64,000 bases of DNA from Candidatus Onthomonas avicola (GTDB lineage: Bacteria > Bacillota > Clostridia > Oscillospirales > Oscillospiraceae). The stretch lies in NCBI GenBank assembly GCA_018710845.1, contig DVJB01000048.1:62001-126000 (forward strand), written 5' to 3'. Below are positions 1 through 16,728 of the stretch, piece by piece (within the stretch, counting starts at the first letter, position 1; each line of letters opens with the position of its first letter). Made by a program: the position numbers and the translations under genes. A model generated the notes under the pieces. The model searched no databases. It had not been told where the DNA came from and saw only the letters and a program-made list of their open reading frames with translations.

Positions 1-761
1 CCGGGCAGCTTGGGAGACATATAGTCCAGCGGATAGGCCAGCACTCCGCATTCCCGCAGCCGGTCGGGGTACACCTTGATGTCCTTAAAATGGACGTGGA
101 AGATGCGGTCCCGAAAGTCATAGACCGTCTTGAGGTAGTCCAGCCCCTGCCACACGTAGTGGCTGGGGTCAAAATTCAGCCCGAAAAACGGAGAGGGGAC
201 AATCTCAAACAGTCTGCGATAGATCGCCGGGGTACACATCAAATTCTGTCCGCCCGGCCACTGATCCGCCCCAAAGAGCATAGGACAGTTTTCAATGGCA
301 ACTCTGACCCCTCTCTCCTCGGCAAAGGCGATCAGCTCCGGCCAAATCTGCGCAAACAGCTCTACGTTTTCCTCTGTGGTTTTCCACTGATCGCGCCCGA
401 TAAAGGTGCTGACCATATCAATTCCCAGCGTGGCGGAAGCCTGTATCACCGTCTTCAGATGGGCAATGGCCCGCGCGCGGCGTTCCAGATCATGGTCCAT
501 CGGATTGGGATAATAGGCCAGCGAGGACAGCGCCACTCCCCTTTCCGCAGCGTAGTCGACAATATGGCGCGCATACACCGCATCTGTGCAGACCCGCTCG
601 CAGTCGATATGGCTGACGCCGGCATAGCGCCGCTCCGCCCGGCCGGCCGGCCAGCAGGCCACCTCCAGACAGGAAAAGCCCATCTCGGCAGCGAGATCCA
701 CCGCCTCCTCGTAGCTCCACCCATCCAGGATGGAGGTGAGCAGTCCGAGCCCTCTCCTCAT
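1..761 (-). CDS. Sugar phosphate isomerase/epimerase, TIM-barrel family (3' end beyond window)
   Basis: I translated this frame by hand: it starts MRRGLGLLTSILDGWSYEEA and stays open for 253 codons to the window edge, so the C-terminus is missing. The fold is the AP-endonuclease-2/xylose-isomerase TIM barrel. Likely metal-site segments are VAIENCP (about residue 153), NFDPSHY (about 197) and HVHFKD (about 222). The start ATG overlaps the stop of the upstream Gfo/Idh gene as ATGA, with a GGAGGAG ribosome site, so the two are translationally coupled. Family members isomerise or epimerise sugars, and some act with Gfo/Idh partners on 3-keto-glycosides. The substrate is unknown. Confidence 0.85.
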   Translation of the reverse strand, partial: MRRGLGLLTSILDGWSYEEAVDLAAEMGFSCLEVACWPAGRAERRYAGVSHIDCERVCTDAVYARHIVDYAAERGVALSSLAYYPNPMDHDLERRARAIAHLKTVIQASATLGIDMVSTFIGRDQWKTTEENVELFAQIWPELIAFAEERGVRVAIENCPMLFGADQWPGGQNLMCTPAIYRRLFEIVPSPFFGLNFDPSHYVWQGLDYLKTVYDFRDRIFHVHFKDIKVYPDRLRECGVLAYPLDYMSPKLP

Positions 762-1813
762 GTCAACTCCTCCTCTCCGGAGCAGAGAGAGACCGTTTTC
801 CCCTCTCTGCTGGCAGTAATGGCCGCGAAGACGGCGCGCATGGCCGGCAGCACGCTCTGTCCGGACAGCTCCGGCTCCCGTCCCTGCACCAGGCAATCCA
901 CCCACTGGGCGATCACGCCGGAGTCGCTCTGGTTGTCGTTGGTCTGAATGCTTCCCAGCTCATAGAACTGCCGCTCTCCGCTCTTTTTGATGATGACAAT
1001 CGCGTAGTTCGGGTCGTCATAGATGCGCATCATCCCCTCTGTCCCATAGAGGACGGTGGAATTGTCCTCCGCCCCGTAGTGGGTCCAGGATGCCTGCAGC
1101 ATGGCCATCACGCCGTTGTCCATCTCATAGATACAAAACGCATTGTCGTCCACGCCGATCAGCTCTCCACTCGGCGTGCGCTTGTCCAGCGTGGCCAGGC
1201 GCGCCGTGACGCGGCAGATGGTTCCCCCGCACAGGAATTGCAGCAGATCGGTCTTGTGAATGCCCAGATCCGCCATGACGCCCATTGCCGCCCGCTGCGG
1301 ATCGAAAAACCACGTCCCGTTCCCCGGGTCAATCGACCAGCTCTCCGGGCCGCCGTGGCCGAAGGTGGTGCGCGCGGTCAAAATGGTCCCGATCTCCCCG
1401 CGCGCCAGGAGCTCTCTGGCGCGGACATGGGCCGGCGCCAGTCGTTGATTCTGGCCGATCATCAGGAACCGGTGCGCCCGCGCCGCCTCGGCCACCATCC
1501 GCTCACAGTCCGCCAGCGTGGTCGCCATCGGCTTTTCACACAGCACATGCTTGCCTGCCCGCAGCGCGGCAATCGAGATGGACGCGTGGGCGTTATTGGC
1601 CGTACACACCGAGACCGCGTCAATCGAGTCGTCGGCCAGAAGCGCCTCCACCGAGGGATATGCCTTGCCCTGATACCGCTGCGCCAGTTCCTGCGCCCGC
1701 TCCTGGTTGAGATCGTAAAATCCGGCCAATACCGCGTCAGGATGTGCGGCATACTCCGGAATATGGCGGGTCTGCGCAATCTTGCCGCAGCCGATGATGC
1801 CAACTCGAATCAC
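758..1813 (-). CDS. Gfo/Idh/MocA-family oxidoreductase
   Basis: 351 aa, normal for the family. The N-terminal Rossmann fold opens with VGIIGCGKIAQ (GxGxxA, NAD(P) binding), and the catalytic-lysine motif CEKPM lies near residue 93. The C-terminal half is the alpha/beta substrate-binding domain. The start is GTG behind GGAGGAGG, overlapping the stop of the upstream creatininase-family gene. These enzymes oxidise or reduce a hydroxyl or keto group of sugars, inositols or glycosides. Coupling to the TIM-barrel epimerase downstream resembles dehydrogenase-isomerase pairs that work through 3-keto-sugars. A second, divergent family member is encoded at 7059-8207. Confidence 0.9.
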   Translation of the reverse strand: MIRVGIIGCGKIAQTRHIPEYAAHPDAVLAGFYDLNQERAQELAQRYQGKAYPSVEALLADDSIDAVSVCTANNAHASISIAALRAGKHVLCEKPMATTLADCERMVAEAARAHRFLMIGQNQRLAPAHVRARELLARGEIGTILTARTTFGHGGPESWSIDPGNGTWFFDPQRAAMGVMADLGIHKTDLLQFLCGGTICRVTARLATLDKRTPSGELIGVDDNAFCIYEMDNGVMAMLQASWTHYGAEDNSTVLYGTEGMMRIYDDPNYAIVIIKKSGERQFYELGSIQTNDNQSDSGVIAQWVDCLVQGREPELSGQSVLPAMRAVFAAITASREGKTVSLCSGEEELT

Positions 1814-2583
1814 TCTTTTCCCTCCTCCCCGTTCTCACGCTTCTGCTCCAGTTCCCGCAGAAAATCCCGGATTCGGTCCACCATATAGCGAAAGATCGCC
1901 TCCCCCTTTTCCGCCGATGCGAGAGAGGGCGCCCCCAGCACGCCGTTGCCCGGACTCAGCTCTGCCGTACTCCAGCCCGGAATGAACTCGCAGGTTCCGC
2001 TGCAGCAGTCATATTCGCCGCGTATCTGATCGGTCCGGACCAGTTCCGGCCGCCGGTGCAGCAGGATCGAGGTCTCAATCTCGCCGGCATGGATGTCCAG
2101 CGCCACCGGCGTCTGAAGGGGAAGCACGCCGTCGCGGAAAAATCCGGAGTGGAAAAAGCTCAGCAGGTAGACGCGAAGTCCAAACTGCTGCTCCCAATGG
2201 CGCGCATTGGCCTCAATCAGCGCGGCGTTTCCCCCATGGGAATTGATAATGACCACGCGCTTGACCTGGTGACGCTGCGCGCTGGCGAGGATATCCTCAA
2301 TCAGTCCTTCCATAACATGGTTGCTCAGCGTGACCGTCCCGCAGAAATCCATGTGCTCCCGGCTGCACCCGTAATGGATGGCCGGCAGGCAGAGATAGCG
2401 TCCGCGCAGCGTCGTGTCCGCCCGCAGCCCCTCCAGCACCGTGTGCAAAATGTCGTCGTCTGTCCCCAGGGGCAGATGTCTCCCATGCTGCTCCAGGGCG
2501 CTGATGGGCAGGATATAGGTGATATCCTCCGACTGCATCGCCTCGCGCTCTGCCCAGGTGTATTCTTTGAGTGTCGCAATCAT
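1810..2583 (-). CDS. Creatininase-family amidohydrolase
   Basis: 257 aa, typical length. The metal-binding signature EQHGRHLPLGTD (Glu31, His33, Asp42) is followed by INSHGGN near residue 113 and HAGEIETS near 165, all family hallmarks. Characterised relatives hydrolyse cyclic amides (creatinine) or formamide intermediates (formylamino-pyrimidinones), or process the mycofactocin peptide. No mycofactocin genes are nearby. Position between two amidohydrolases and a sugar dehydrogenase favours ring opening or deamidation of a heterocycle. The gene is 4 bp downstream of the 8-oxoguanine-deaminase-like gene. The exact substrate cannot be read from sequence. Confidence 0.88.
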   Translation of the reverse strand: MIATLKEYTWAEREAMQSEDITYILPISALEQHGRHLPLGTDDDILHTVLEGLRADTTLRGRYLCLPAIHYGCSREHMDFCGTVTLSNHVMEGLIEDILASAQRHQVKRVVIINSHGGNAALIEANARHWEQQFGLRVYLLSFFHSGFFRDGVLPLQTPVALDIHAGEIETSILLHRRPELVRTDQIRGEYDCCSGTCEFIPGWSTAELSPGNGVLGAPSLASAEKGEAIFRYMVDRIRDFLRELEQKRENGEEGKE

Positions 2584-2587
2584 ATCC

Positions 2588-3946
2588 TTACACGCTCCCG
2601 TTCAGCAGTCGCCGCACCTGGCTCCGCGCTTCGCAGGCCGCCTGTTCTTCGTCCACGCCGCAGAGCACCCCGTCACGGGAGACCACCTGGCCCTGTACCA
2701 TCACCAGCTTGGCCGGCCGGTGACAGCCCACCGTGCCCAGCAGATTGGCCGGGTCTCCCTCCGCTCCGGCACAGTCCAAATATCTCGTGTCAATCAGGAA
2801 GAGGTCTGCGGCCTTTCCCTCCTCCAGAGATCCCAGATCGCTGCGGCCCAGCACGGCAGCGCCGCCGCGCGTGGCCATTTTCAGAATGTCATACCCTGTC
2901 GGCGCACGCTCGCTGGAGGTCAGCCGGTGCAGCAGATAGGCAATGCGGATCTCCTCGAGCAGATTGGAGCCGTCGTTGCTCGCGCTGCCGTCCACCGCCA
3001 GCCCCACCGGGATGCCCCGCTCCAGCAGATCGGGCAGCCGGCATACCCCGGAGGCCAATTTCATATTGGAGGCCGGGCAGTGCGCCACGCCGGTCCCGCT
3101 CCGGGCCAGCTGCTCCAGCTCATCGTCGTTAAAGTGAATCCCATGCGCATACCAGACATCCGGTCCCGTCCACCCGCACGATTCCATGTACTCCAGCGGA
3201 CGCATACCGAACAGCTCCAGGCAATACCGCTCCTCGTCCTTTGTCTCACACAGATGGGTGTGAAGGCGGACGCCCAGCTCCCGGGCCAAGACGGCCGACT
3301 CCCGGAGCAGGTCGCTCGTCACACTGAAGGGAGAGCAGGGCGCCAGCGCCACCTGATGCATGGCATACGGCCGGGCATCATGGAACCGGCGGACCAGGCG
3401 CTCACTGTCCTTTAGAATGGCATCCACATCCTGCACCAGGTCGTCCGGCGGCAGTCCGCCATCGCTGGTCCCGCGCGACATGCTGCCGCGCGTGGCATGG
3501 AAGCGAATCCCGAGCGCATCCGCGGCTCGGAACTGCTGGGCGATCAAATCCTCCGTCCCGTCACGCGGGAACACATAGTGGTGGTCCATGCAGGTCGTAC
3601 AGCCGTATTTGACCAGCTCTCCCAGCCCGGTCAGCGCGCTCCAATAGGCCCACTCGGCATCCATCCCCCGCCAGATCTCGTAGAGGGTTTTCAGCCACGG
3701 AAAGAGCTCCATCCGCTGCACCTGCGGCAGATTGCGGGTAAAGGTCTGATAGAGATGGTGGTGCGTGTTGATCAGGCCCGGGTAGACAATGCAGCCAGCG
3801 GCGTCAATGACGTGATCTGCCGGGCGCGTCTCGGGTCCGACATAGCGAATCACGCCGTCGTCAATCCAGACGTTGGCCTGTTTCAGAACGCGGTCGTTCC
3901 GGTCTACTGTGACAATCGCGTCGGCATTTTGAATCTGTGTCAGCAT
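2588..3946 (-). CDS. Amidohydrolase of the ATZ/TRZ group (8-oxoguanine deaminase-like)
   Basis: 452 aa. The motif PGLINTHHHLYQT gives the metal HxH (His62, His64). LHTHLCET, YAHGIHF and VDGSASNDGSN follow in the order seen in 8-oxoguanine deaminase, TrzN/AtzB-type and S-adenosylhomocysteine deaminase enzymes. The INTHHHLYQT form and the SASNDGSN loop most resemble 8-oxoguanine deaminase and hydroxytriazine aminohydrolases, which remove an amino or alkylamino group from an aromatic N-heterocycle. Start ATG lies behind GAGGAGG. The enamidase-like gene ends 24 bp upstream. Class assignment is firm; the substrate is inference. Confidence 0.88.
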   Translation of the reverse strand: MLTQIQNADAIVTVDRNDRVLKQANVWIDDGVIRYVGPETRPADHVIDAAGCIVYPGLINTHHHLYQTFTRNLPQVQRMELFPWLKTLYEIWRGMDAEWAYWSALTGLGELVKYGCTTCMDHHYVFPRDGTEDLIAQQFRAADALGIRFHATRGSMSRGTSDGGLPPDDLVQDVDAILKDSERLVRRFHDARPYAMHQVALAPCSPFSVTSDLLRESAVLARELGVRLHTHLCETKDEERYCLELFGMRPLEYMESCGWTGPDVWYAHGIHFNDDELEQLARSGTGVAHCPASNMKLASGVCRLPDLLERGIPVGLAVDGSASNDGSNLLEEIRIAYLLHRLTSSERAPTGYDILKMATRGGAAVLGRSDLGSLEEGKAADLFLIDTRYLDCAGAEGDPANLLGTVGCHRPAKLVMVQGQVVSRDGVLCGVDEEQAACEARSQVRRLLNGSV

Positions 3947-3970
3947 CGCGTCCTCCTCTCTCTCGGTCCG

Positions 3971-5251
3971 TTATCGGGCGTCTGAGGCACGTTCCACGGC
4001 TTCACAGCCCTCGTAATGCCGGCAGATCTGCGGCGGGAAGAAGAGATGCTCCGTAATCCCGGTGACAAACTGCTCCACTCCCTCAATCCGGCAGGTCCGG
4101 GCCGTCGGCCTGGAATCTTTGCCGCGATAGGCGACAATCCGGCCGTCCACGATCACCATGTCATTTCCAAACGGGTCTCCGCCCTCAATGGCGGACAGGG
4201 CATCCTTGCCGCAGGAGCCGGGCGGGCAATCAATCACCTGCAGGTCGGCCTCGCGCCCCACCTCAATCTTACCTGTGTTCAGCCCGTACAGATCGGCCGC
4301 GTTGCCGGTCGCCATCGCAATAACCTGCCAGGCGGGAATATCGTTCAGGCAGGAGGCCTTGACAATCGCCCGGTTGATGGCCCCGGGCAGAGAGGCCTGG
4401 CCGGTGGGCGCGTCACTGCCAAAGACCAGCCGTCCGAGCTCTCCCTTCCGGCTCATGTGGCGCAGCATCTTGTTGAAGTTGACAAAGTTGCCGTTGACCA
4501 CCAGCTCCAGCGGAATATCGCACTCATCCATGAGCCGCTGAATATGATGGAAGGCCACCGCCGTGGAGCCGCCGTTGGTGTGGGCAACCTTGTTGGGGCG
4601 CAGCTTGAGAATCTCCTCCGACGTCACCCAGGACGAGCCGGGGATGGATGGCGGCGCCAGATGCACCGAGTAGAAGAAGTGATACTTGCGCGCCCACTCC
4701 AGCATCGGGGCAACCTCCGCCGGGTCGGACAGGCCGCCGCCGCCGATCTCGGCAATCAGCCAGACGCCGGCCTCATGCATCTGGCGGAAGTCCTCCTCCG
4801 TCAGCCCGTGCACCAGCACCAGTGCGCCGCCGTGCACCTTGAGCGCCCCGCCGGGGCGATAGCGCCGGAAGACACGGTGGGCCATGATGGCCGCCGCCTT
4901 GCAGCCGATGGGGTCATCGTAAAAGCGCGGCCAGCCGGGGGCCTGCTCTCCCTCCGAGCAAAGCGTCGTGGTGCCGCCGTAGAGGGCGTCCGAATAAGTC
5001 CCCACGGCGCCCCGCTGCGGCGCGTAGTCGTCGAGCGTGTTGTGGACGTGGCAGTCGATAAAGCCGGGACAGACCGTCTGTCCGTCGGTATCCACGATCA
5101 GATCAATCCCGCTGGTATCCACCTCCTGCCGCGCGCCGACCGCCGCGATCTTACCGTCACGGACCACCACGGTGTCACCCTTCAAAATTCCCTTTTCCAT
5201 ATCGCCCGAGACAATTGTCCCGATATTCGTCAAAACCAGATCCCGATTCAT
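3971..5251 (-). CDS. Enamidase-like amidohydrolase
   Basis: 426 aa from the ATG at 5251, which has a good AGGAGGCG site; the frame stays open further upstream but that part is not protein-like. The N-terminus carries the composite-domain beta strands, then FIDCHVH (His68, His70). LKVHGGA, IAEIGGGG, SIPGSSWVT, HTNGGST, FGSDAPTG and MATGNAADLYGLNTG follow in the same order as in the clostridial nicotinate-fermentation enamidase (6-oxo-tetrahydronicotinate ring opening), recalled from memory. No other nicotinate-fermentation gene is present here, so the enzyme probably opens a different cyclic enamide or lactam. The neighbouring aminohydrolase and creatininase genes support heterocycle degradation. 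Confidence 0.82.
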   Translation of the reverse strand: MNRDLVLTNIGTIVSGDMEKGILKGDTVVVRDGKIAAVGARQEVDTSGIDLIVDTDGQTVCPGFIDCHVHNTLDDYAPQRGAVGTYSDALYGGTTTLCSEGEQAPGWPRFYDDPIGCKAAAIMAHRVFRRYRPGGALKVHGGALVLVHGLTEEDFRQMHEAGVWLIAEIGGGGLSDPAEVAPMLEWARKYHFFYSVHLAPPSIPGSSWVTSEEILKLRPNKVAHTNGGSTAVAFHHIQRLMDECDIPLELVVNGNFVNFNKMLRHMSRKGELGRLVFGSDAPTGQASLPGAINRAIVKASCLNDIPAWQVIAMATGNAADLYGLNTGKIEVGREADLQVIDCPPGSCGKDALSAIEGGDPFGNDMVIVDGRIVAYRGKDSRPTARTCRIEGVEQFVTGITEHLFFPPQICRHYEGCEAVERASDAR

Positions 5252-5274: not shown

Positions 5275-6129
5275 TCACTCTGTTCTCTGCCGCGTCATGA
5301 CCCAATATGTCCCGCCGTCGGGGAAGGAGATGGTCCAGTCCGTCTCCGGGGCCACCGTCAGCATCTGCCCCGGTCGGAGCGGGATGCGCTCCCGCTCTTT
5401 CCCCTGCCAAAGCGTCAAAACTGCCTGTGCGGAGAGGCCGGTCACCACATCTTGCCCTTCCCTCGCAGAGCAAAACCGGGCCTCTTCTCCCGGCGGCAGC
5501 GTCCCAAACACCAGACGCATCCGCTGCGACAGGCAGACCCCCGTCTGCCAGCACTCCCAGGACAGACTGTCCACCCGGTCATCCCGGCGGACGTCGTGCC
5601 GGGAGCAGAATCTCCCGCTCCAATCCTCTGCCGGCGCCTCCCGCTCCGGGACAAACGCCGCGGGCTTCCCGCAGGAGATCCATACCGGATCGGGAACTAC
5701 CTCAATCCAGCTCAGCTCGCTTGCCTCTCCGTTGTTATTGGCCAGGAAGGAATAGCAAATGCTGCGCTCCTCGGCACAGCGGCAGGCGTCGTGCCAGACG
5801 CCGCGCGCCAGGACCACCACCTGGCCCGGTTCCACCCGGACCGCGATCACGTCCTCTGCCCGCGGCGCTCCCATCGGGTCGCTGGCCGCCAGGGCCAGCA
5901 CCATCGCCCCCTCAGAGGTAAAGAGCACCTCCTCCGTGCTCCTGTGCCGCTCCATGCTCCGGCAGGAAAAGCTGCCGCCGCCCGTCCGGGTCATCCCGTA
6001 GCGATAGTCGCGCTCCAGCGCGGTGCCGTCCTCCCATCCGGGTGCACCGGACGGCGTACGCAGGTCATACCAGCGCCCGAACGGCGTGAAGTCCAGCTCG
6101 TCGAGCGCGACCGGTCTGATCTCACGCAT
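5275..6129 (-). CDS. Cupin-type protein, possibly ureidoglycolate lyase/DUF4867-like
   Basis: 284 aa from ATG 6129, preceded by an AAAGGAG site; it overlaps the end of the upstream kinase gene by 8 bp. The N-terminal part (DFTPFGRWYDL) and the segment VEPGQVVVLARGVWHDAC resemble the double-stranded beta-helix of ureidoglycolate-lyase-like cupins. The C-terminal part (LRPGQMLTVAPETDWTISFPDG) looks like a second beta-helix ending. Family placement is tentative. A ureido- or sugar-acid-processing role would fit the amidohydrolase-rich operon, but no catalytic residue can be assigned with confidence. Confidence 0.6.
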   Translation of the reverse strand: MREIRPVALDELDFTPFGRWYDLRTPSGAPGWEDGTALERDYRYGMTRTGGGSFSCRSMERHRSTEEVLFTSEGAMVLALAASDPMGAPRAEDVIAVRVEPGQVVVLARGVWHDACRCAEERSICYSFLANNNGEASELSWIEVVPDPVWISCGKPAAFVPEREAPAEDWSGRFCSRHDVRRDDRVDSLSWECWQTGVCLSQRMRLVFGTLPPGEEARFCSAREGQDVVTGLSAQAVLTLWQGKERERIPLRPGQMLTVAPETDWTISFPDGGTYWVMTRQRTE

Positions 6130-7057
6130 CTCCTTTCTCCCTCCTCTCTTCCGTCTCCAGCAGGCGCAGCACCTCCGCCTCGCACAGCCCCGGCCCCTTC
6201 GCGCCGTAACGCATGACGCACAGCGCAGCCGCCGCGGTGGCAAAGCGGGCCGCCGTGACACAGTCCTCGCCACGGCACAGCCGGCTGAGAAAGGCCGCGT
6301 TAAAGGTATCGCCCGCTCCGGTCGTATCCGTCACCGGCACCGAACAGGCGGGCAGATGGCGCGTGAGGTCCCGGGTATACACGCTGCAGCCCTTCGCCCC
6401 CCTGGTCACGACGACCACTCGCGCCGCCTGCTCCAGCAAACTTCGAAACGCCTCTTTCCAGCCGCAGGCGTCCTCATACTGGGCGGCTCCGTATTCGTTG
6501 AAAAACAGGACCCCCGCCCGGGAGAAGAGCAAATCCTGCACCGCTCCCGGCGCGTACTGCTCTACATCCAGCACCAACTGTGTCCCGCCCTCGCGCAGCC
6601 GGTCCAAAAAGTCCGGCAGCCGCGCGACCTGCGCCAGGTCGGACACCGTGGAATAGAGATAGTCCGCCTCCAAAAAATACGACAGGTCCTGCTGCCAATC
6701 CAGCGGCGGCTTCTCCGCCCGGACGGCAAAGACGGTCCGCTCTCCGCCGGTGAGGAAAATCATACACTTTCCGTCCGGCAGCCTCTCATCTCGCCGCATG
6801 TGCGCCGTGTCCACGCCGTAAGACGTCAGGTCCTGCAGAATCCGCCCTGTTGTCTCGCTGCGGTTGACCGTATCCACCAGCCCGGCGCGCACGCCGAGCT
6901 GTGAGAGAATGCAGGCCACATTGGCCACCATCCCGCCCACAACCGGCGTCAGCGCCCGGACCTCCAGCTTGTCCCCCAGCGGAATCCAGCGCCCGGCGGC
7001 GTAGTATTCATCTACGCAGGCCGCCCCGACGGCCACCACTTGGACGTCCGAGGGCAT
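6122..7057 (-). CDS. PfkB-family carbohydrate kinase
   Basis: 311 aa from ATG 7057, one base after the stop of the upstream Gfo/Idh gene, with an AGGTGG site; a TTG further upstream is possible but less likely. The ribokinase fold shows GGMVANVA near residue 41 and the C-terminal signature DTTGAGDTF with catalytic Asp250 intact. It should phosphorylate a sugar, sugar acid or nucleoside using ATP. Paired with the nucleoside phosphorylase two genes upstream, it could capture the released sugar, but the substrate is inference. Compare the second PfkB protein at 10678-11586, whose catalytic Asp is altered. Confidence 0.88.
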   Translation of the reverse strand: MPSDVQVVAVGAACVDEYYAAGRWIPLGDKLEVRALTPVVGGMVANVACILSQLGVRAGLVDTVNRSETTGRILQDLTSYGVDTAHMRRDERLPDGKCMIFLTGGERTVFAVRAEKPPLDWQQDLSYFLEADYLYSTVSDLAQVARLPDFLDRLREGGTQLVLDVEQYAPGAVQDLLFSRAGVLFFNEYGAAQYEDACGWKEAFRSLLEQAARVVVVTRGAKGCSVYTRDLTRHLPACSVPVTDTTGAGDTFNAAFLSRLCRGEDCVTAARFATAAAALCVMRYGAKGPGLCEAEVLRLLETEERREKGDA

Positions 7058-7058
7058 A

Positions 7059-8207
7059 TCAGTCCACCTGCGCAATGGTCAGGCCGTGCGGCATGGGCGC
7101 AGGCCGCTCACAGGTGGTGGAAAACGTGTAGGAACCGCCCTGACGCACCGCCTGATCGAAGGAGAGCAGCACCTCGGTGCAGTGCAGAACAAAGGACTCG
7201 TTCGTCCGGTGCGGACGGCCGTTTTCAATCGCCGCGATCAGGTCCACCACGCCGATGCCGCGGCGGTTCCCGACCGAGCCGCTGAGCACGGCGGGAATCT
7301 GATACCAGCGGTCCTTATCCGCCACAGCGCCCCGCCCCTCCAGCTCGTCGATCACACCGTTGGCCCGGTACAGGGAGATCACGCCGGTGAAATCGGCCGG
7401 GTGCGGAATCCGCAGCGTGCCCTCCGTGCCGTAGACCTCAAAGGCGGGCAGGCCGGACTGCCACAAATCGAAGCTCATCACCAGATTGACCAGCACTCCG
7501 TTTGCCATCTCGGCATTGGCGCAGTAATGCGTGTCCACCTGTACCTCAATGGACTCGCCGCAGTGCGGTTCGGAGTAGATCCGCCGCTGGTCCAGCGCCC
7601 GGGTAGACAGGCACTGAATCCGCCGCATGGGGCCAAAGAGATGCACCAGGGCCGCCACCGCGTACGGGCCCATATCCAGCAGCGGACCGCCGCCCGGCTG
7701 ATAGAAGAAGGCGGGATTGGGGTGCCAGGTCTCCGGGCCCCAGCCGACAATATTTGCCGTGGCGGCAAAGGGCTTTCCAATCCAGCCCTCGTCGATGAGC
7801 TTGCGGCAGGTCTGCAGGGCCGGTCCGAGGAAGGTGTCCGGCGCGCAGGCCACGCGCAGACCCTTCTTTTGGGCGAGCGCCAGCGTCTCCTTCGCGCCCT
7901 CCAGCGACAGCGCCAGAGGTTTTTCACAGTAGACATGCTTGCCCGCCTCGAGCGCCTTGCGGTTGAGTTCATCGTGCGCGGCGGGAACCGTCAGGTTTAC
8001 CACAATGTCCACCTCAGGCAGCGCCAGCAGCTCCTCCGGCGTGCAGGCCAGCGGCACGCCAAATTTCTCCGCCGTCTCCCGGGCACGCTCCGGCACGAGA
8101 TCCGCGCACGCTACGACCTCCACCTGGCGGCGATAGCTCGTTCGAAAATCTTCCAGATAGACCTGGGCAATATTGCCGCAGCCGATCATGCCAATCCGAT
8201 GATTCAT
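7059..8207 (-). CDS. Gfo/Idh/MocA-family oxidoreductase (second copy)
   Basis: 382 aa from ATG 8207, which overlaps the stop of the nucleoside phosphorylase gene as ATGA. The Rossmann motif IGMIGCGNIAQ opens the protein and YCEKPLAL supplies the catalytic lysine. GWGPETWHPNPAFFYQPGGG and LLDMGPYAVAAL belong to the substrate domain; the latter is typical of glycoside-type dehydrogenases. It is clearly divergent from the copy at 758-1813, so the operon encodes two different redox steps rather than a recent duplication. Substrate unknown. Confidence 0.9.
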   Translation of the reverse strand: MNHRIGMIGCGNIAQVYLEDFRTSYRRQVEVVACADLVPERARETAEKFGVPLACTPEELLALPEVDIVVNLTVPAAHDELNRKALEAGKHVYCEKPLALSLEGAKETLALAQKKGLRVACAPDTFLGPALQTCRKLIDEGWIGKPFAATANIVGWGPETWHPNPAFFYQPGGGPLLDMGPYAVAALVHLFGPMRRIQCLSTRALDQRRIYSEPHCGESIEVQVDTHYCANAEMANGVLVNLVMSFDLWQSGLPAFEVYGTEGTLRIPHPADFTGVISLYRANGVIDELEGRGAVADKDRWYQIPAVLSGSVGNRRGIGVVDLIAAIENGRPHRTNESFVLHCTEVLLSFDQAVRQGGSYTFSTTCERPAPMPHGLTIAQVD

Positions 8208-9115: not shown

Positions 9116-9534
9116 GCGCCCCCTCCTCCCGTCTCGGCCGGAAGGAGCTGCACCCAGACCTCGCGGCGGCGCGGCCCGTCAAACTCAAAGAAGAAAATAC
9201 CCTGCGATGAGCCGAGCTGGAGGGCGCCGTCCTCCACGATGACCGTCTGCCCCACGCCAAACAGAGCGGACTTGATGTGCCCCGCGGCGTCTGTCGGGGT
9301 GTCAAACTGATGCTTGAAATTCACCCTTGTGGGAATCAGGCGGTCGGTCTCCTCCTCAATATCCGCAAAGCCCAGCACATCCATGCGGGAGATCACGGTC
9401 AGGCCCGCCGTCGTGTGGGGCACCCAGAGCACCGCCGCGCCGCGCCGGAGTCCGCTCTCCTCCACTACCCGGCGCACCTCCTGCGTGATTTCCACCAGGC
9501 CGTTGCCGGCCGTCTTGAGCTCAATGCGCTTCAT
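9112..9534 (-). CDS. YjbQ/UPF0047-family protein (secondary thiamine-phosphate synthase fold)
   Basis: 140 aa, full length. Hallmarks are WVPHTTAGLTVI (about residues 38-49), AAGHIKSALFG (about 83) and LQLGSSQGIFFFEFDGPR (about 104-121). Some family members show weak thiamine-phosphate synthase activity, but the physiological role is not established. The gene overlaps its neighbours by 4 bp on each side (ATGA/GTGA), so it is part of the catabolic operon. No thiamine gene and no thiamine riboswitch is seen nearby, which argues for a metabolic or scaffold role here. Confidence 0.88.
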   Translation of the reverse strand: MKRIELKTAGNGLVEITQEVRRVVEESGLRRGAAVLWVPHTTAGLTVISRMDVLGFADIEEETDRLIPTRVNFKHQFDTPTDAAGHIKSALFGVGQTVIVEDGALQLGSSQGIFFFEFDGPRRREVWVQLLPAETGGGGA

Positions 9535-10664
9535 TGTCCATCCTCCTGCGCCACAAAGCGGCTGTTTTTGGGAAATTTCGACTCGTCCCAGACGCCGGCA
9601 TGGCCGCGGTAATAGTCCTCATCCAGGAACAAATTCATATAGGAGACCATCTGCGCCAGCAGGGCAAAGTGATACAGCGGGGCAAACAGCTCGCGTACCG
9701 GCTCGCCGCAGGCCACGGTATGTGCTCCACCGTCATCCCGGTCTGTGAAGACGAAATACGGTCTGCCCAGATGCCCGAGCAGCCAGATCAGCTCTTCCTG
9801 CCGGCCGGCGGCCAGCGCGTCCGCAGTGGTGAGCAAAATTGCGGGCAGTTTCGCCGGTTCGCGCCGGAAAAAGTTGAGGTGGAAGAACTCCTCGCTCTCC
9901 TGGGCCAGCGCCCCGGTCCCGACAGCCTCATAGATTTTGGCCACGCCAAACTCCGCCGAGCCGAGCGCCGGACCGCTGCCGATCAGCTCCACCTGTCCGT
10001 ATTCGGCGCAAAGGCGGGCCGCCTCCTTCAGCGTTTCCGCCTGGCCGTTGAGGACCGAACGAATTCGGCCGGCCAGGCCGCGCAGCTCTCTGCGCAGCGC
10101 CCCGGCCTCGTCCATGGTCATTACGCCCTTGTTCTCCCCCATGCGGATGGCCAGCATCAGCAACGCCAGCAGGGTGGCGATGCAGGAGCGGACCTCTGGC
10201 GCGGCAGGATATGGCTCAATGGCGGTACAGATGACTCCGTCGCTCAGCTTGCCCAGCGTACTGTCCGGGCGGGCAGTGATGGCCAGCACGAGCGCGCCGG
10301 TCTCCTTCCACGCTCTGGCCGCCTCGACCACGCGTGCCGTCTCTCCGGAATTGCTGATAGCGATCAACAGGTTGTGGCATCCCGGCTGGGGAAGCCACCC
10401 GTCCGGCAGATAACGCGCCGCCTCCAGCGAGCGAACCGCCTGCGCGTCCACATGAGCCAGGCGCGCGAACGCCTGCCGGGCCGCCTTTGCCGCGATATAG
10501 GAGTCTCCGCTTCCCACGAGATAGAGGTGCTTGACCTGATAGGTCTGCTCTACCGAGAGGGCAAAACGCACCTCCTCTTTCCAGCGCTCCACCAGCTCCT
10601 CCAACAGGGCCGGAATGCTGCACACCTGCCGGTACATGGCGTTTTGTTCTGTGAACAATCTCAT
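9531..10664 (-). CDS. SIS-domain sugar-phosphate isomerase/deglycase-like protein
   Basis: 377 aa from ATG 10664 (GGAGG with a short spacer); the open frame runs further upstream but is not protein-like. Two SIS domains are visible: YLVGSGDSYIAAKAARQAF with ISNSGETARVVEAA in the first, and LIGSGPALGSAEFGVAKIYE in the second. The glutaminase domain of GlmS is absent, so it resembles AgaS or FrlB (fructoselysine-6-phosphate deglycase) types. These act on aminated sugar phosphates. In this operon it could release an amine from a phosphorylated sugar conjugate after kinase action. The stop overlaps the start of yjbQ. Confidence 0.8.
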   Translation of the reverse strand: MRLFTEQNAMYRQVCSIPALLEELVERWKEEVRFALSVEQTYQVKHLYLVGSGDSYIAAKAARQAFARLAHVDAQAVRSLEAARYLPDGWLPQPGCHNLLIAISNSGETARVVEAARAWKETGALVLAITARPDSTLGKLSDGVICTAIEPYPAAPEVRSCIATLLALLMLAIRMGENKGVMTMDEAGALRRELRGLAGRIRSVLNGQAETLKEAARLCAEYGQVELIGSGPALGSAEFGVAKIYEAVGTGALAQESEEFFHLNFFRREPAKLPAILLTTADALAAGRQEELIWLLGHLGRPYFVFTDRDDGGAHTVACGEPVRELFAPLYHFALLAQMVSYMNLFLDEDYYRGHAGVWDESKFPKNSRFVAQEDGQ

Positions 10665-11608: not shown

Positions 11609-12469
11609 TCACAGCTCGATGCCGTGGAACTGCTGCATGCCCTGGTAGCATCTGCGGATGCTCTCAAATTCGCCCAGCTTGGTCCAGTCCTGCTCCAGGA
11701 TGAAGTATTCCAGCGCGCCGCTCTCGTTGCCCGCGTCAATGATGCGCTGGATGTCCATAATGCCCCAGCCGATCTCGCAGAAGGTGTCCTTGTTCTCAAT
11801 CCGGTCATACACCGCGCGGCACATCACCTCGCCCGGAATCACCCGCGCCGGCAGATAGATCTCGTGGCCATGGCCTTTCGTATAGTCCTTCTGATGGATC
11901 ATGCTCACCCGCTTGCCCAGGCGGCGAATCTCCTCCGCCGGGTCCACGCCGCCGCGCATCGCCCAGAAGGTGTCGATCTCAATTTTCACCAGGTCCGGAT
12001 CGGTGTTCTCCAGGAGCATCTCCCAGATGGTCTTCTCCTCGCCGGGCAGCTTCATAAACTCGTGGAAGTGGTTGTGATAGTGGAACTGGATGCCGTGCTT
12101 GGCGCAGGTCGCCCCGGTCTGGTTGAGCCACTCGGCCCGGCGGAGCACCTCGTCCCGGTTCTGATAGAAGTCCCGGGAGAAGACCACGTTGTGGTTCCCG
12201 ATCTCACACTGGTACTCGCACAGCTCGTCCAGGTGGTCAAACGGATCAAACATGATGGAGATGATCCGGATGCCCACGTCATCCAGGAATTTGTTCAGCT
12301 CGGAGGCCGGCATATGGAATCCAGCCCCTTTGTCGTGCTCCGTGTCAAAGTTGGATACCTCCACATAGCGGTAGCCCGCCGCGGCCAGCTCCCGGAATGT
12401 CCCGATCGGGTCCTCTCTCATGTGATTTTGCACGTTGCAGGTCTGAATGCCCAATTTTGCCATTGCCAT
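11609..12469 (-). CDS. Sugar phosphate isomerase/epimerase, TIM-barrel family
   Basis: 286 aa, complete. The start ATG at 12469 follows AGGAG at a good distance. Probable metal-site segments are QFHYHNHFHEF (about residues 128-138), KIEIDTFWAMRGGVD (about 160) and VSMIHQKDYTKG (about 188). This HYHNH...EIDTFW...HQKD pattern is seen in Gfo/Idh-partnered TIM-barrel isomerases and 3-keto-glycoside hydrolases. It is the first enzyme gene downstream of the transporter genes, hence probably an early step. It differs from the partial family member at 1-761. Confidence 0.87.
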   Translation of the reverse strand: MAMAKLGIQTCNVQNHMREDPIGTFRELAAAGYRYVEVSNFDTEHDKGAGFHMPASELNKFLDDVGIRIISIMFDPFDHLDELCEYQCEIGNHNVVFSRDFYQNRDEVLRRAEWLNQTGATCAKHGIQFHYHNHFHEFMKLPGEEKTIWEMLLENTDPDLVKIEIDTFWAMRGGVDPAEEIRRLGKRVSMIHQKDYTKGHGHEIYLPARVIPGEVMCRAVYDRIENKDTFCEIGWGIMDIQRIIDAGNESGALEYFILEQDWTKLGEFESIRRCYQGMQQFHGIEL

Positions 12470-12537
12470 CGTTGTAAACTCCTTTCTGTATTTGCCGCGG
12501 CGCCGTTTGCGGCGGCTCCGCCCTTTTGTCGTCTCTT

Positions 12538-13362
12538 TCAGCCCTTCAGGTCCCCCGCGGTCAAGCCGGAGATAAAGTATTTCGAGCCGGCGATAAAGAC
12601 CAGAATCAGGGGCAGCGTCCCGAGGGAGAGCGCGCAGATCTGCGCGGCGTAGTTGGTGCTGTACTGTGTCGCCAGGCGAGAGATGCCCAGCGTCACCGGA
12701 TAGAGCTCCGTGTCATTCAGGATGACCAGCGGAAGCATATACGTGTTCCAGTTCCACATAAACTGCAGAATCGCCAGTGTGGCCAGCGCCGGTTTGACAT
12801 AGGGGATGACAATCTGCAGGAACAGCCGGAACTCCCCGCATCCGTCCATCCGCGCGCTCTCAATCACCTCGTTCGGCACGTTGGTCTTGATATACTGCGT
12901 CATCCAAAACGCTCCAAAGCAGTTGGCCGCAAAGTAGAGGATGATCGCCTCCCGCGTCCCGCTCAGCCCGAGATAGCGCAGCTCAATCATATAGCCAATG
13001 ACACCCACCTGAGAGGGGATCATCATGGCCGCAATGATAAAGAGCAGCAAAAACCGGGACCCGGGGAACCGGAACTTGGCCAGCCCATAGCCTGCCAGCG
13101 AGCTGATAATCAGCGCTGCCAGCGTGGTCAGGACGGCGATATAGAAGCTGTTTTTGTAAAATACCAGGAAGCCGCCCTCAAATACCGTCTGCAGATTCTC
13201 CAGCAGATGGGTGCCCGGCAGCATGCTGGCGCTGTCGCCGATCTCATAAGTGGAATAGGTCCCCATGAGCAGCATCATATAAAACGGGTAGAGACAGATC
13301 AATGCCGTGACCGTCAGAACCACATAGGTCAAAATCTTACTGCCTCTGCTGCTAAGACCCAT
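12538..13362 (-). CDS. Carbohydrate ABC transporter permease, MalG type
   Basis: 274 aa with six predicted membrane segments; the first is VVLTVTALICLYPFYMML. The EAA loop that docks the ATPase reads VIESARMDGCGEFRLFLQIV, and the C-terminal segment is normal for the family. It forms a heterodimer with the MalF-type permease encoded just upstream and receives substrate from the lipoprotein at 14484-15854. No ATP-binding subunit is encoded in the window, so a shared MsmK/UgpC-type ATPase elsewhere is presumed, as is common for CUT1 importers in Firmicutes. Confidence 0.93.
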   Translation of the reverse strand: MGLSSRGSKILTYVVLTVTALICLYPFYMMLLMGTYSTYEIGDSASMLPGTHLLENLQTVFEGGFLVFYKNSFYIAVLTTLAALIISSLAGYGLAKFRFPGSRFLLLFIIAAMMIPSQVGVIGYMIELRYLGLSGTREAIILYFAANCFGAFWMTQYIKTNVPNEVIESARMDGCGEFRLFLQIVIPYVKPALATLAILQFMWNWNTYMLPLVILNDTELYPVTLGISRLATQYSTNYAAQICALSLGTLPLILVFIAGSKYFISGLTAGDLKG

Positions 13363-13413
13363 ACCGCTCCCTCCTTTCCCGTCGGCCCATGCCGCCTGTG
13401 TGCATCCGCTCCA

Positions 13414-14367
13414 TCATCCGTCCTCCCTGATTCCTCGCATGCGCGGAATCATCGTCACGAGGGAGAAGATGATAATAATGATAAACAGCAGGTAGCTGAT
13501 CGCCGAGGCATAGCCAAAGTCGCGCACGGCGCTGTTTCCAAAGGCGATATAGTATAGATACCACACCGGCGTCAGGCAGGTTCTGCCCGGACCTCCAATC
13601 GCCGCAGAGGTATTGCCCGCCGTAAAGAGTGTTTTGACCGCGTCGAAAATCTGCAGACCGTCAATCAGGGTGGTGATGACGATAAACATTGTGATGTTCC
13701 GAAGCATCGGCAAAATGATGCGGAAGATCATATTCCAGAATTTGCAGCCGTCCAGCGAGGCCGCCTCAATCACATCCCGCGGGATGCTGGTCAGAGCGGA
13801 CAGGTAGAGCGTCACCACATAGCCAAAGGTCTTCCAGATCTGCATTACGATGACAATCGACCTGGCAAACTCCTGACTGCCCAGCCAGTCAATCGGCTCG
13901 GATATGATATTCAGCCGCATCAGCAGTGCGTTCACCGTCCCGGACTGCCAGCTGAACATCATGGAAAACAGCATGCCGACCGCGACCGGCACCACCACGT
14001 AGGGCAAAAACATGCTGACCTGAAACGCCCTTCTCAGCCGCAGGTTTCTGGCGTAGAGCAGCACGGCGATCACAAACGATAAGATCAGCGTCACCGGCAG
14101 ATAGCCCAGCACAATCAGAAAGACGTTTTTGATGCTGGTCCAGAACAGCGTGTCCGTCTGAATGGCCCTGATATAGTTTGCAAATCCGACAAAGGTCTGC
14201 TCCCCGATGCCGTCCCAGGAGAAAAAGCTGAGATAGAGGGTGTAGAGGAGCGGAAACAGATTAAATACGAGATAGAACGCGACAAACGGCAGGACAAACA
14301 AGATTCCCTTCCGGTTGGTGCGCGCGTTAAGTGTCGTCCGTCTTCGCGACAACGCAGTTGTGTTCAC
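13414..14367 (-). CDS. Carbohydrate ABC transporter permease, MalF type
   Basis: 317 aa using the GTG at 14367, which has GGGAGG six bases upstream; codons before it look non-coding. The first membrane helix is ILFVLPFVAFYLVFNLFPLL, and the EAA loop is VIEAASLDGCKFWNMIFRIIL. The protein belongs to the CUT1 importer class (oligosaccharides, glycosides). A strong stem-loop separates it from the binding-protein gene upstream, which usually lowers permease expression relative to the binding protein. The last codons lie about 50 bp before the MalG-type permease. Confidence 0.92.
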   Translation of the reverse strand: MNTTALSRRRTTLNARTNRKGILFVLPFVAFYLVFNLFPLLYTLYLSFFSWDGIGEQTFVGFANYIRAIQTDTLFWTSIKNVFLIVLGYLPVTLILSFVIAVLLYARNLRLRRAFQVSMFLPYVVVPVAVGMLFSMMFSWQSGTVNALLMRLNIISEPIDWLGSQEFARSIVIVMQIWKTFGYVVTLYLSALTSIPRDVIEAASLDGCKFWNMIFRIILPMLRNITMFIVITTLIDGLQIFDAVKTLFTAGNTSAAIGGPGRTCLTPVWYLYYIAFGNSAVRDFGYASAISYLLFIIIIIFSLVTMIPRMRGIREDG

Positions 14368-14411
14368 AGCACCACCTCCCGCAGCTCTTTCCCAAAAACT
14401 GCAACTGCGCA

Positions 14412-14442
14412 GTGAGCGGCGGCCGTACTGTCCGCCGCTCAC
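14412..14442 (-). terminator. Intercistronic stem-loop between binding-protein and permease genes
   Basis: The 11-bp perfect stem GTGAGCGGCGG/CCGCCGCTCAC encloses a 9-nt loop just downstream of the substrate-binding protein stop. No U-run follows, so it is more likely an mRNA-stability or partial-attenuation hairpin than a full terminator. Confidence 0.6.
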
Positions 14443-14483
14443 GCTGTGTCAGGAGCCTGAAGCGTTTCAGGCCATCGCTTTTA

Positions 14484-15854
14484 TCACTCGACCGTGACGT
14501 CCGTCGGAAGCAGCAGCGCAATCTCGTCCATTGCGGCCGCGACCGCGTCTTCACAGGTCATATTCGGATCGTCCTGGATCAAGCCCATCACCGTTGCCGT
14601 CACCGTCTTGATGGAGCCGTCATAGGCACTGGGGGCGCGGACGGACATCTCCGGGGCGACCTCTTCGAGCAGGAAGCGGTTGACGTCCTGGCCGGCAAAG
14701 AATTCGTCCTCCGAGGTGGCGTCAGGATGATTGACATAGTAGTCCTTCATCGGAGTCAGCATCTCCATCTGGCCGAGCGCCTCTTCCACGCCGGTGTCCG
14801 AGAGCAGGCAGTGCTGCAGGAAGAGCCAGGCGTTCTCCTTATTCTCTCCGCCGGCGAGCATGCCAATGCCGGTACCGCCCAGGTAATACGCGCCGCCCGG
14901 CGCACGGATGACGGAGAAGTCACCGGAAAGTTCCTCTGCGTTCGGCTTCACGGCCGAGGTCCCGCTCCAGGGCGCGTACTGCCAAAATACGACAGTCCCA
15001 TTGCTGTAAGAGGCGTTCCAGTCAGTGCTCCAACGGTTGACCTTGCCGACGCAGTTGTTGTCGCGCAGCTTGGTCATAATGTCAAACATATAGGTGAAAT
15101 ACTTGGTGAGATAGAGGGTATGGCTCTCCGCGTCGTAGATCTCGTCTGTGTACTGGCTGTCAATCATCCAGTTGATCTCGTCCAGACCGGCCAGAGCGCG
15201 AACCGTGCCGCCGGACTGCTCATAGATCTGCGCGCCCACTTCACAGAAGGCATCCCAGTCGGGGATCATCGCCATGATCTCGTCCATGTCGTCGGTGCCC
15301 AGATACTCCTTGGCCAGGCTGCGGCGGTAGAGCATGCCGGCCGGGTTGTAGTTCTGCTCCACAATGCACACACGCCCGTTCTCGTCCCGGATCGCCGCTT
15401 GGAGCGAGTCCTCCAGCGCGGAGCCGTCGAAGTTGTACGGGGCCTGAGACAGGTCTTCCCACACGTCCAGCGCCAGATGCTGCCCGCGGGTGTTCATCTC
15501 CACGTAGGCCAGATCGGGCATCTCTCCGCCGGAGGAGGCCAGGGAGACCAGCTTGCTGTAGACGTCGCCGTTGTCGGCCAAAATAATCTCTACCTCAATG
15601 TCGGGATACACCTTGTTAAAGGACTCGGCATAGATCTGGCATTCAGACTCCGACCAGGTGAGAATGCTCAGCTTCCCACTGGGCTCCTCTCCATCTGCGG
15701 AGTCTTCTGCCGCCGCATCCCCGGTATCCGATTCTGTCGTGTTCTCTGTGTTTGTCTCTGTCGTGTCGGTCGCGGCGTCATTCGTACCGGCACAGCCCGC
15801 GAGCAGGCTGAGCAGCATGATGAAGGCGACGCTGATGGCTAGGATCTTTTTCAT
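14484..15854 (-). CDS. ABC transporter substrate-binding lipoprotein (sugar type)
   Basis: 456 aa from ATG 15854 with AGAAGGGAG upstream. It has a lipoprotein signal peptide MKKILAISVAFIMLLSLLAG and Cys21 as the lipidation site. An acidic, Ser/Thr-rich linker follows, then a type-1 solute-binding domain (LSILTWSESECQIYAESFNKV) close to the family 1 extracellular sugar-binding proteins. It captures the substrate outside the cell for the two permeases. Ligand identity cannot be predicted from sequence alone and is the key unknown of the operon. Confidence 0.92.
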   Translation of the reverse strand: MKKILAISVAFIMLLSLLAGCAGTNDAATDTTETNTENTTESDTGDAAAEDSADGEEPSGKLSILTWSESECQIYAESFNKVYPDIEVEIILADNGDVYSKLVSLASSGGEMPDLAYVEMNTRGQHLALDVWEDLSQAPYNFDGSALEDSLQAAIRDENGRVCIVEQNYNPAGMLYRRSLAKEYLGTDDMDEIMAMIPDWDAFCEVGAQIYEQSGGTVRALAGLDEINWMIDSQYTDEIYDAESHTLYLTKYFTYMFDIMTKLRDNNCVGKVNRWSTDWNASYSNGTVVFWQYAPWSGTSAVKPNAEELSGDFSVIRAPGGAYYLGGTGIGMLAGGENKENAWLFLQHCLLSDTGVEEALGQMEMLTPMKDYYVNHPDATSEDEFFAGQDVNRFLLEEVAPEMSVRAPSAYDGSIKTVTATVMGLIQDDPNMTCEDAVAAAMDEIALLLPTDVTVE

Positions 15855-15949
15855 TTTGGTTCTCCCTTCTTTTGGTTTGTATGAAACAGCGCTGCTGGTC
15901 CATCCCTCTAATATTATCCGAAACGGCACCTCACACGGCCGCAGGCAGA

Positions 15950-16687
15950 TCAAAATAGGCTGTTGATCTTGTCAATGCTGATCGTCGTGGACAGGCTCAG
16001 TTTATCCGGATGAAAATAGTAAATACCCGCGCCGCACATCTGGTCAGACAGATCGAAGTACCGCTCCTCCCAATAGATAAACGGGCGGTCCGGCGCGATA
16101 TGGAACCACTCGGCAATCTCCTCGTTCGTACAGCATTTGACATCGTAGGCGATATAGGCCAGCGGGTCCTTCAGATATCTGGCACAGAAATGCGGCACAT
16201 CGCAGACCGGCGGTTCCGCCTCCGGCTCTTCGGCAAAGGCCGTCTGCAAAACCTGCGAGTCGCCGTAGATGACCGGCGCCCCGTCGGCATAATAGCGCCA
16301 GTGGCTGGCGTGCACCGTAACGTCCGGCTGTTCGAACAGATGCGCCGCCGGCCCATGCGCGGGTAAAAAGCCCTGCCAGTCAATATACAGCTCTCCAGTC
16401 GCAAACGTATCCTGAATGATCTTCAAAAAATTTGCACCCAGATTGGTCCTCGTCTTCATATTGACGACTGACGGCAGGCCAAACGTGCCCTTCCCGTGCA
16501 CCGTCTTGATATAGCCGTTGCGCAGCAGCAGCTTCAGCGCCTCGCGGATGGTCGCCCGGCTGACGCCCATCTGCGCCGCCAGATCGTCCTCCGAGGGCAG
16601 ACGGTTTTCTCCCGGATTCATCTGCCGGATCTCCTCCAGCAGATAGTCATAGACCTGATCTGCTCTCGTCTTGGCAATCAATTTCAC
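15950..16687 (-). CDS. GntR-family transcriptional regulator with UTRA domain
   Basis: 245 aa. The N-terminal winged helix shows LPSEDDLAAQMGVSRATIRE (about residues 30-49) followed by LKLLLRNGYIKTVHGKGTF. The C-terminal part is a UTRA-like sensor domain, which in relatives such as NagR or TreR binds a phosphorylated sugar. The gene is first in the minus-strand run and probably autoregulates it through the palindrome at 16729-16752. The binding-protein gene starts 95 bp downstream, leaving room for an additional promoter that I could not define. Confidence 0.9.
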   Translation of the reverse strand: MKLIAKTRADQVYDYLLEEIRQMNPGENRLPSEDDLAAQMGVSRATIREALKLLLRNGYIKTVHGKGTFGLPSVVNMKTRTNLGANFLKIIQDTFATGELYIDWQGFLPAHGPAAHLFEQPDVTVHASHWRYYADGAPVIYGDSQVLQTAFAEEPEAEPPVCDVPHFCARYLKDPLAYIAYDVKCCTNEEIAEWFHIAPDRPFIYWEERYFDLSDQMCGAGIYYFHPDKLSLSTTISIDKINSLF

Positions 16688-16728
16688 ACAGACTCCCTCC
16701 CTTTCTTACAAGTATTGATCTCTCTCGT

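Follow-up and report, generated by a model that had tools for sequence, protein, structure and literature searches.

What compound is used by a bacterial operon in which sugar-type enzymes and hydrolases of nitrogen heterocycles are encoded side by side? The question is raised by a 17-gene run in Candidatus Onthomonas avicola, found on a stretch of 64,000 nucleotides (contig DVJB01000048.1, positions 62,001–126,000) that is termed here the window; coordinates count from its start. With moderate confidence, the operon can be looked at as a substrate-induced catabolic unit for a nucleoside-like N-glycoside, i.e. a sugar joined to an amino-substituted nitrogen heterocycle. This reading draws support from the co-directed run, from an aminohydrolase (g2) that scores above an equivalog cut-off, from an enamidase-like protein that matches a solved enamidase at E 1e-99, and from linkages of NP-I, SIS and creatininase genes that recur in other bacteria.

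Open reading frame and family scans show one run on the minus strand, from 16687 to 162 bp past the window start (Table 1). An uninterrupted run had been described in a sequence-only reading of the window, and Pfam and NCBIfam scans confirm it, with all the families named found in place. The many 4-bp overlaps mentioned there are found at 5 of the 16 junctions, and one further junction has an 8-bp overlap. The genes it named are right, but the bicupin gene at 6129–5275 was missed, and the last TIM-barrel gene continues 162 bp beyond the window. A UTRA domain had also been assigned to the GntR regulator; none is reported by Pfam at E 0.001. No intergenic gap exceeds 95 bp apart from the one that precedes the first permease, which is 41–152 bp because the start of this gene is uncertain. 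Sugar-type and base-type genes are interleaved along the operon and form no separate blocks.

A promoter-like site is found upstream of the GntR gene, and between the two is a perfect 22-bp palindrome, GTAAGACGTACGTACGTCTTAC, which is present at one site in the window with up to 3 mismatches allowed, and in 0 of 100 shuffles. The palindrome (16751–16730) is probably the operator of the operon. Terminator-like sites in positions 1–17400 number 13 against 11.2 expected, and give no clear split of the run.

Table 1. Genes and putative control sites of the operon, in order of transcription (window coordinates)
Feature	Description	Position	Strand	Basis or remark
Promoter-like site	TTGACA-17-TATCCT	16762..16790	-	10/12 consensus matches only; downstream of terminator-like hairpin 16945-16915
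Palindrome	putative operator, perfect, 22 bp	16730..16751		between promoter-like site and GntR start
g15	GntR-family regulator	15950..16687	-	PF00392 56 bits
g14	extracellular solute-binding protein	14484..15854	-	PF13416 67.5 bits, PF01547 56.7 bits
g13	ABC permease	13414..14442	-	PF00528; start uncertain
g12	ABC permease	12538..13362	-	PF00528
g11	xylose-isomerase-like TIM barrel	11609..12469	-	PF01261; best PDB 8tcs/8tcd
g10	PfkB kinase, type accompanying SIS in L018, L023, L026, L027	10678..11586	-	family scan and comparisons
g9	SIS protein	9531..10664	-	PF01380, one SIS stretch reported by Pfam
g8	YjbQ/UPF0047	9112..9534	-	TIGR00149 109.7 bits, cut-off 67.75
g7	NP-I (uridine phosphorylase-like), divergent subfamily, altered phosphate site	8204..9115	-	PF01048 81 bits
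g6	Gfo/Idh/MocA oxidoreductase	7059..8207	-	best PDB matches are DgpA
g5	PfkB kinase, beside cupin here and in rhizobia	6122..7057	-	PF00294 152.6 bits
g4	bicupin with ureidoglycolate lyase-related N-terminal half	5275..6129	-	PF04115 22.2 bits, cut-off 23
g3	enamidase-like amidohydrolase	3971..5251	-	solved enamidase 2VUN, E 1e-99, query residues 7-390 of ~426
g2	aminohydrolase, 8-oxoguanine deaminase family	2588..3946	-	NF006055 593.4 bits, cut-off 532, residues 4-450
g1b	creatininase-family amidohydrolase	1810..2583	-	PF02633 204.6 bits, cut-off 31.3
g1a	Gfo/Idh/MocA oxidoreductase	758..1813	-	DgpA third and fourth among PDB matches
g0	xylose-isomerase-like TIM barrel	761 to -162 (1..761 in window)	-	family scan

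How the bond between sugar and base might be cut depends on g7. The fold of this protein is that of the NP-I family (Foldseek top match 3qpb, E 2e-19, TM 0.62 by query and 0.75 by target), and its score is below the TIGR01718 uridine phosphorylase cut-off (130.8 vs 280.3 bits). Five members of the g7 subfamily were aligned with five canonical proteins. The subfamily members are from the window, from R. leguminosarum plasmid pRL1 (locus L023), from two loci of R. lusitanum (L027 and L033) and from genome G978 (L034), and they are 40–44% identical to g7; the canonical set is from loci L008–L011, with the DeoD protein of locus L018. The GDPxR arginine, a second arginine and the RVGT threonine are motifs that we take to belong to the phosphate site. 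In the canonical set both arginines are found in 5/5 proteins and the threonine in 4/5. In all five g7-type proteins, glycine replaces both the second arginine and the threonine, the EME motif reads (D/E)RE, and a 6-residue insertion breaks GDPxR, whose arginine is gone in four. Because GDPxR is broken and the second arginine and the threonine are lost, hydrolysis appears likelier than phosphorolysis. A canonical uridine or purine phosphorylase was set aside in view of the missed cut-off and the altered phosphate motifs; judged from the aligned residues, phosphorolysis by g7 is doubtful and cleavage by water is the preferred reading.

A search of 398 genomes of the phylum with g7 gave 10 matches besides the own genome (35–42% identity), and the four that were aligned are canonical. 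Loci L033 and L034 come from two of 247 rhizobial genomes searched, with the R. lusitanum genome as the search centre, and a class search of 327 genomes added no further g7-type locus, R. lusitanum itself being the sole match. Plasmid searches with the SIS protein, g7 and g10 as queries returned the R. leguminosarum locus only.

Just before g7 in the run are the genes for YjbQ, the SIS protein and the PfkB kinase g10. GlmS aligns with residues 41–342 of g9, and both length and alignment fit a tandem-SIS enzyme. The K-x2-E-x15-H pattern of the GlmS isomerase domain, whose three residues presumably have catalytic roles in g9 as well, is aligned in g9 and is invariant in the four SIS sequences compared (K244, E247 and H263 in alignment numbering, one less when counted from the Met at 10664). 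At E 1e-30 the SIS protein is found in 2 of 59 genomes in a search of relatives, own genome included, the other being the congener G011 (30%); at E 1e-25 it is found in 2 of 398 sampled genomes of the phylum, again with the own genome, the other being G610. A contig scan with two peptide patterns and a two-sequence alignment returned one locus.

The congener locus (L018) has the SIS protein, YjbQ (55% identity) and a g10-type PfkB kinase together with an importer and a DeoD phosphorylase that is over its cut-off. Two nucleoside-hydrolase-type proteins are also encoded, one of which was scanned (best RihA, 193 vs 433 bits, under cut-off) and the other recognized by eye, and an ATZ/TRZ-type aminohydrolase, 26% identical to g2, is found divergently on the other strand. 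Near the SIS-YjbQ run of the same locus, at 4915–6006, is a protein that by eye resembles two fused nucleoside deoxyribosyltransferase domains. In R. leguminosarum (L023) and R. lusitanum (L027), SIS, YjbQ and g7-type genes are found in the window order, with PfkB and importer genes, and L027 additionally carries an ADP-ribosylglycohydrolase-family protein. Beside the SIS-YjbQ-NP-I genes of L027 (12576–18605), a barbiturase/cyanuric-acid-hydrolase-type ring opener, an amidase, an FAD monooxygenase and a PucG-like aminotransferase were noted by eye. In G610 (L026, 11436–18875) the order is PfkB-SIS-BtpA/SgcQ-DeoC, followed by an SDR protein (by eye), FdrA (over cut-off) and AllG, which is of the oxamate carbamoyltransferase subunit family; the BtpA protein is only distantly related to rhizobial BtpA proteins. 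A ureido or carbamoyl product is hinted at here, because carbamoyltransferase-type subunits succeed the kinase-SIS pair.

A kinase next to an SIS enzyme raises the question of whether the operon uses Amadori compounds. Here g10 would phosphorylate, and g9 would split, a fructosyl- or ribulosyl-amine, and the amidohydrolases would treat the amine part, e.g. an imidazolone-type glycation product. Creatininase acts on a 2-iminohydantoin-like ring, which agrees with such a product, as the retained GlmS pattern of g9 agrees with a deglycase. An importer, a kinase and a deglycase are also what has been proposed to let a gut commensal use fructoselysine, according to the accessible part of PMC4697335. 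The known family members are nevertheless far away: g9 scores 25.5 bits against the FrlB cut-off of 430 (NF008481), and the two PfkB kinases 32.1 and 64.9 bits against 247 for FrlD, so that a fructoselysine operon proper was dropped. In addition, the congener SIS-YjbQ genes accompany a DeoD phosphorylase and nucleoside-hydrolase-type proteins, and the NP-I enzyme has no evident role in an Amadori pathway, which on balance seems improbable.

For the N-glycoside reading, base breakdown would be carried out by g2, g3 and g1b, in which the creatininase and amidohydrolase motifs are intact. By its score, which is over the cut-off, g2 is a member of the 8-oxoguanine deaminase family. The H-x-H and DAP motifs of g3, which we assume to be catalytic, align with those of the solved enamidase. 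A search with g3 in 393 other genomes sampled from the order gave no match at E 1e-40. Plasmid records with g3 homologues number 25, and by annotation none of the five loci opened is like the window operon. One of the five (L044, Sulfitobacter M368) has a 6-hydroxynicotinate reductase and a molybdopterin protein within 8 kb. The Pfam and NCBIfam scans reported no 6-hydroxynicotinate reductase family for the 17 genes, and a nicotinate pathway was dropped for this reason. In four of the five plasmid loci an ‘amino acid synthesis family protein’ is found within 8 kb of the enamidase-like gene (L041 7395, L042 465, L043 7376, L044 10366), the Prescottella locus being the one without it. The creatininase g1b passes its Pfam family cut-off, and scores 106.6 bits against 235 for the creatininase equivalog TIGR04448.

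Elsewhere, too, g7-type genes are found near base-type genes. Locus L033, the second one of R. lusitanum, and L034 of G978 each have a g7-type gene with a PfkB kinase, a creatininase (30–32% identical to g1b) and an ATZ/TRZ amidohydrolase; the kinase was named by Pfam in L034, and by eye in L033, where it is 35% identical to that of L034. Both loci have, by eye, an ABC importer of another kind, and L033 also has an ADP-ribosylglycohydrolase-family protein. With 69% identity between their g7-type proteins, the two are counted as one lineage. As far as found, g1b is the sole creatininase and g8 the sole YjbQ of the window genome; R. lusitanum has 8 creatininases and 2 YjbQ copies, G978 has 7 creatininases and G011 has 2 YjbQ copies. 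If genes are placed uniformly, a creatininase would fall within 6 kb of a g7-type gene with a probability of ~0.005 in the window genome and ~0.013 in R. lusitanum; for YjbQ and a distance of 1 kb from a given place, the figures are ~0.0008 in the window genome, 0.002 in G011 and 0.0005 in R. lusitanum. They are rough: it was their neighbours that drew attention to the loci, and clustering is common among catabolic genes in any case.

The second kinase, g5, is paired with the bicupin g4. Relatives of g5 (29–31%) are adjacent to relatives of the N-terminal half of g4 (36–42%) in 7/7 loci compared. GntR and BtpA-type genes precede this cupin-PfkB pair in three annotated plasmid loci and in 4 of 121 rhizobial genomes, the four being those that have the cupin. 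The structure model of g4 has two cupin-like halves (mean predicted local distance difference test score, pLDDT, 63.7), and general bicupins are among the best 50 rows of its fold search. The protein falls just under the Pfam ureidoglycolate lyase cut-off (Table 1), and scores 19.7 against 260 bits for NF002952. By analogy, the idea can be put forward that g4 splits an N-glycosyl urea. A wider proposal, which as a whole is doubtful, is that g7 represents a new NP-I branch, common to this bacterium and distant rhizobia, that would hydrolyse an unusual N-glycoside, and that it is wired both to a deaminase and an enamidase that would open the base and to a kinase-cupin step in which an N-glycosyl urea phosphate would give urea and sugar phosphate, much as in the ureidoglycolate lyase reaction.

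The remaining genes, g6, g11, g1a and g0, encode two oxidoreductases and two sugar-isomerase-like TIM-barrel proteins, which is the make-up of 3-keto deglycosylation operons. In an Agrobacterium operon described in the accessible part of PMC10628242, two sugar-isomerase-like proteins accompany the glycoside dehydrogenase GlycDH and a further oxidoreductase; the operon is termed there analogous to the PUE and levoglucosan operons, with oxidation, elimination, hydration and reduction steps. Could the entire operon then serve 3-keto deglycosylation of a plant O- or C-glycoside, with the amidohydrolases as passengers or acting on a nitrogenous aglycone? DgpA is among the best PDB matches of both Gfo proteins, and g0 has a weak match (31 bits) to the 2-hydroxy-3-keto-glucal hydratase 8ro4, in line with that possibility. 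It is very improbable, however, as no score against the glycoside 3-dehydrogenase equivalogs NF058561 and NF058563 exceeds 43.3 bits (cut-offs 650 and 750), and the reading does not account for NP-I, SIS, PfkB and YjbQ or for four hydrolases or lyases of the base type. An IolN-type inositol pathway was also considered, and dropped (IolN 46.8 vs 245 bits).

Returning to a nucleoside-like N-glycoside as substrate, the following scheme can be drawn; each reaction, the reaction order and the substrate class are what we infer from the genes. An importer that we take to be of the CUT1 type, by its binding protein g14, would bring in the compound, and the GntR protein would leave the palindrome in the presence of the compound or of a product. 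The C-N bond would be cleaved by g7, with water likelier than phosphate. The sugar may be processed by g10 and the GlmS/FrlB-type SIS protein g9, giving a sugar phosphate for which no special aldolase is required, with YjbQ as a putative accessory. The base would be deaminated by g2 and its ring opened by g3, and g1b and the g5/g4 pair may split further amide or ureide bonds. The Gfo and TIM-barrel proteins might provide an oxidation-elimination-hydration-reduction route for hexoside forms or for an epimerized sugar. A shunt to dihydroxyacetone phosphate was dropped, no aldolase family having been reported among the 17 genes.

Several points weigh against a single N-glycoside pathway. The entire 17-gene operon was found in no other genome searched. 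At E 1e-5, tblastn finds no relative of the deaminase, the enamidase or the creatininase in the stretches of L023 and L027 compared, and the rhizobial ATZ/TRZ amidohydrolases are 26–27% identical to g2 and pass no listed NCBIfam cut-off. The structure model of g7 has a mean pLDDT of 61; the L033 protein still has an aligned arginine at the place of the GDPxR one, and all five g7-subfamily proteins retain the RVG/RIG arginine. An NP-I enzyme, an SIS deglycase type and a 3-keto elimination type in one operon would amount to three sugar-releasing chemistries, a poor fit to one compound. A promoter scan of positions 1–17400 on both strands found 14 promoter-like sites against 4.4 expected, with minus-strand sites of 9/12 matches within the run at 13754, 13302 and 4365. 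Because these weaker sites occur there, transcription starts inside the run are possible.

The strongest rival explanation is that of a scavenging island, in which gene acquisition would have stacked under one regulator two or three distinct pathways (use of Amadori compounds or unusual sugars, purine/pyrimidine base breakdown, 3-keto deglycosylation), each with its own substrate. The three weak internal promoter-like sites would agree with this, as would the absence of an enamidase match in the other sampled genomes of the order, and a transposase-like fragment is found at the operon border. Moreover, the sub-modules are found apart elsewhere: SIS-YjbQ-NP-I-PfkB in L023 and L027, NP-I-PfkB-creatininase-amidohydrolase in L033 and L034, and GntR-BtpA-cupin-PfkB in the four rhizobial genomes. 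Yet it is the NP-I protein that links sugar-type and amidohydrolase-type sub-modules in other bacteria, and one use of the whole operon is suggested because the genes overlap and sugar and base genes interleave. Stacked pathways are possible, if rather unlikely.

The sequence-only reading had proposed a pathway for a sugar-N-heterocycle compound. What stands of this is a co-directed unit that combines an importer and sugar kinases with an enzyme of the N-glycoside type and several hydrolases of the N-heterocycle type. The phosphorolytic cut that it assumed is doubtful in view of the altered phosphate positions of the g7 subfamily, and the feeding of a sugar phosphate into glycolysis found no support and stays a supposition. 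It had suggested a search for co-occurrence of the families, and they do co-occur elsewhere in part: NP-I recurs in rhizobia with creatininase and ATZ/TRZ amidohydrolase, and with SIS-YjbQ-PfkB, but the enamidase and the full set of 17 genes recur in no other genome searched. It had also held that absence of amidohydrolase genes from related operons would speak against the pathway, and here the result is mixed, as the L023 and L027 loci show no match to them in the stretches compared and L033 and L034 carry both a creatininase and an ATZ/TRZ amidohydrolase. As for the compound itself, 8-oxoguanosine, isoguanosine, ribosyl-pyridones, creatine riboside and glycated bases are speculative candidates. 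Titles and abstract openings in the literature gave no description of such a pathway and none of a YjbQ role in such an operon, which is weak evidence, subscription papers being mostly outside coverage.

Some features around the operon may be mentioned. Downstream of the last gene, and in opposite orientation, is the transposase-like fragment (by eye; window -1295 to -435, L003 16714–17568), which is a possible island border, and past it are an FGGY-type kinase, an aldo-keto reductase and a rhamnose-isomerase-like gene, also by eye. Upstream of the operon, at 16915–17230, is a near-identical hairpin pair (GCCGGGATG...CATCCCGGC), ~270–280 bp apart, with no clear genes in the stretch between. 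Further along the window, an L-ascorbate phosphotransferase-system-like operon (20574–27614; EIIB-like, EIIC-like, UlaG-like, epimerase-like and aldolase/epimerase-like genes) and a group 4-type hydrogenase cluster (32000–45500; HypE, HypD, HypF and membrane subunits) were recognized by eye.

The comparisons connect several poorly understood families through a few recurring modules: YjbQ/UPF0047, BtpA/SgcQ, the bicupin, and divergent NP-I and creatininase-family branches. A question of family function thereby becomes a bench question with a short list of substrates, namely unusual nucleosides and N-glycosides. If the proposal is true, it would provide a metabolic context for YjbQ and a bacterial route for the use of glycosylated N-heterocycles.

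In relation to known systems, the operon resembles several and equals none. Fructoselysine (frl) operons contain PfkB, SIS and GntR genes, and the window operon is like these and other Amadori operons in its importer, PfkB kinase, GntR regulator and SIS enzyme with the GlmS catalytic pattern; it differs in missing the FrlB and FrlD cut-offs, and in having YjbQ, NP-I, deaminase, enamidase, creatininase, Gfo and TIM-barrel proteins in addition. With nucleoside catabolic operons it shares an NP-I fold enzyme and PfkB kinases, and the congener has its SIS-YjbQ-PfkB genes among nucleoside genes, but in the window the NP-I phosphate site is altered and heterocycle-opening hydrolases are added. Nicotinate-type enamidase clusters have an enamidase with which g3 aligns nearly full length, whereas the 6-hydroxynicotinate reductase and molybdopterin protein seen near the Sulfitobacter M368 homologue are not among the 17 genes. 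The 3-keto glycoside operons (Agrobacterium AtOGE/AtHYD, PUE dgp, levoglucosan), as far as the accessible part of the source describes them, have the same two oxidoreductases and two xylose-isomerase-like TIM barrels; the window set misses the family cut-offs and is part of a larger operon that also encodes hydrolases of the N-heterocycle type. Lastly, the rhizobial GntR-BtpA-cupin-PfkB string has a cupin and a PfkB kinase related to g4 and g5 and likewise adjacent, but it includes a BtpA/SgcQ protein and, in the three annotated plasmid loci, an amino-acid-type importer, whereas the window g4 has an additional C-terminal cupin domain.

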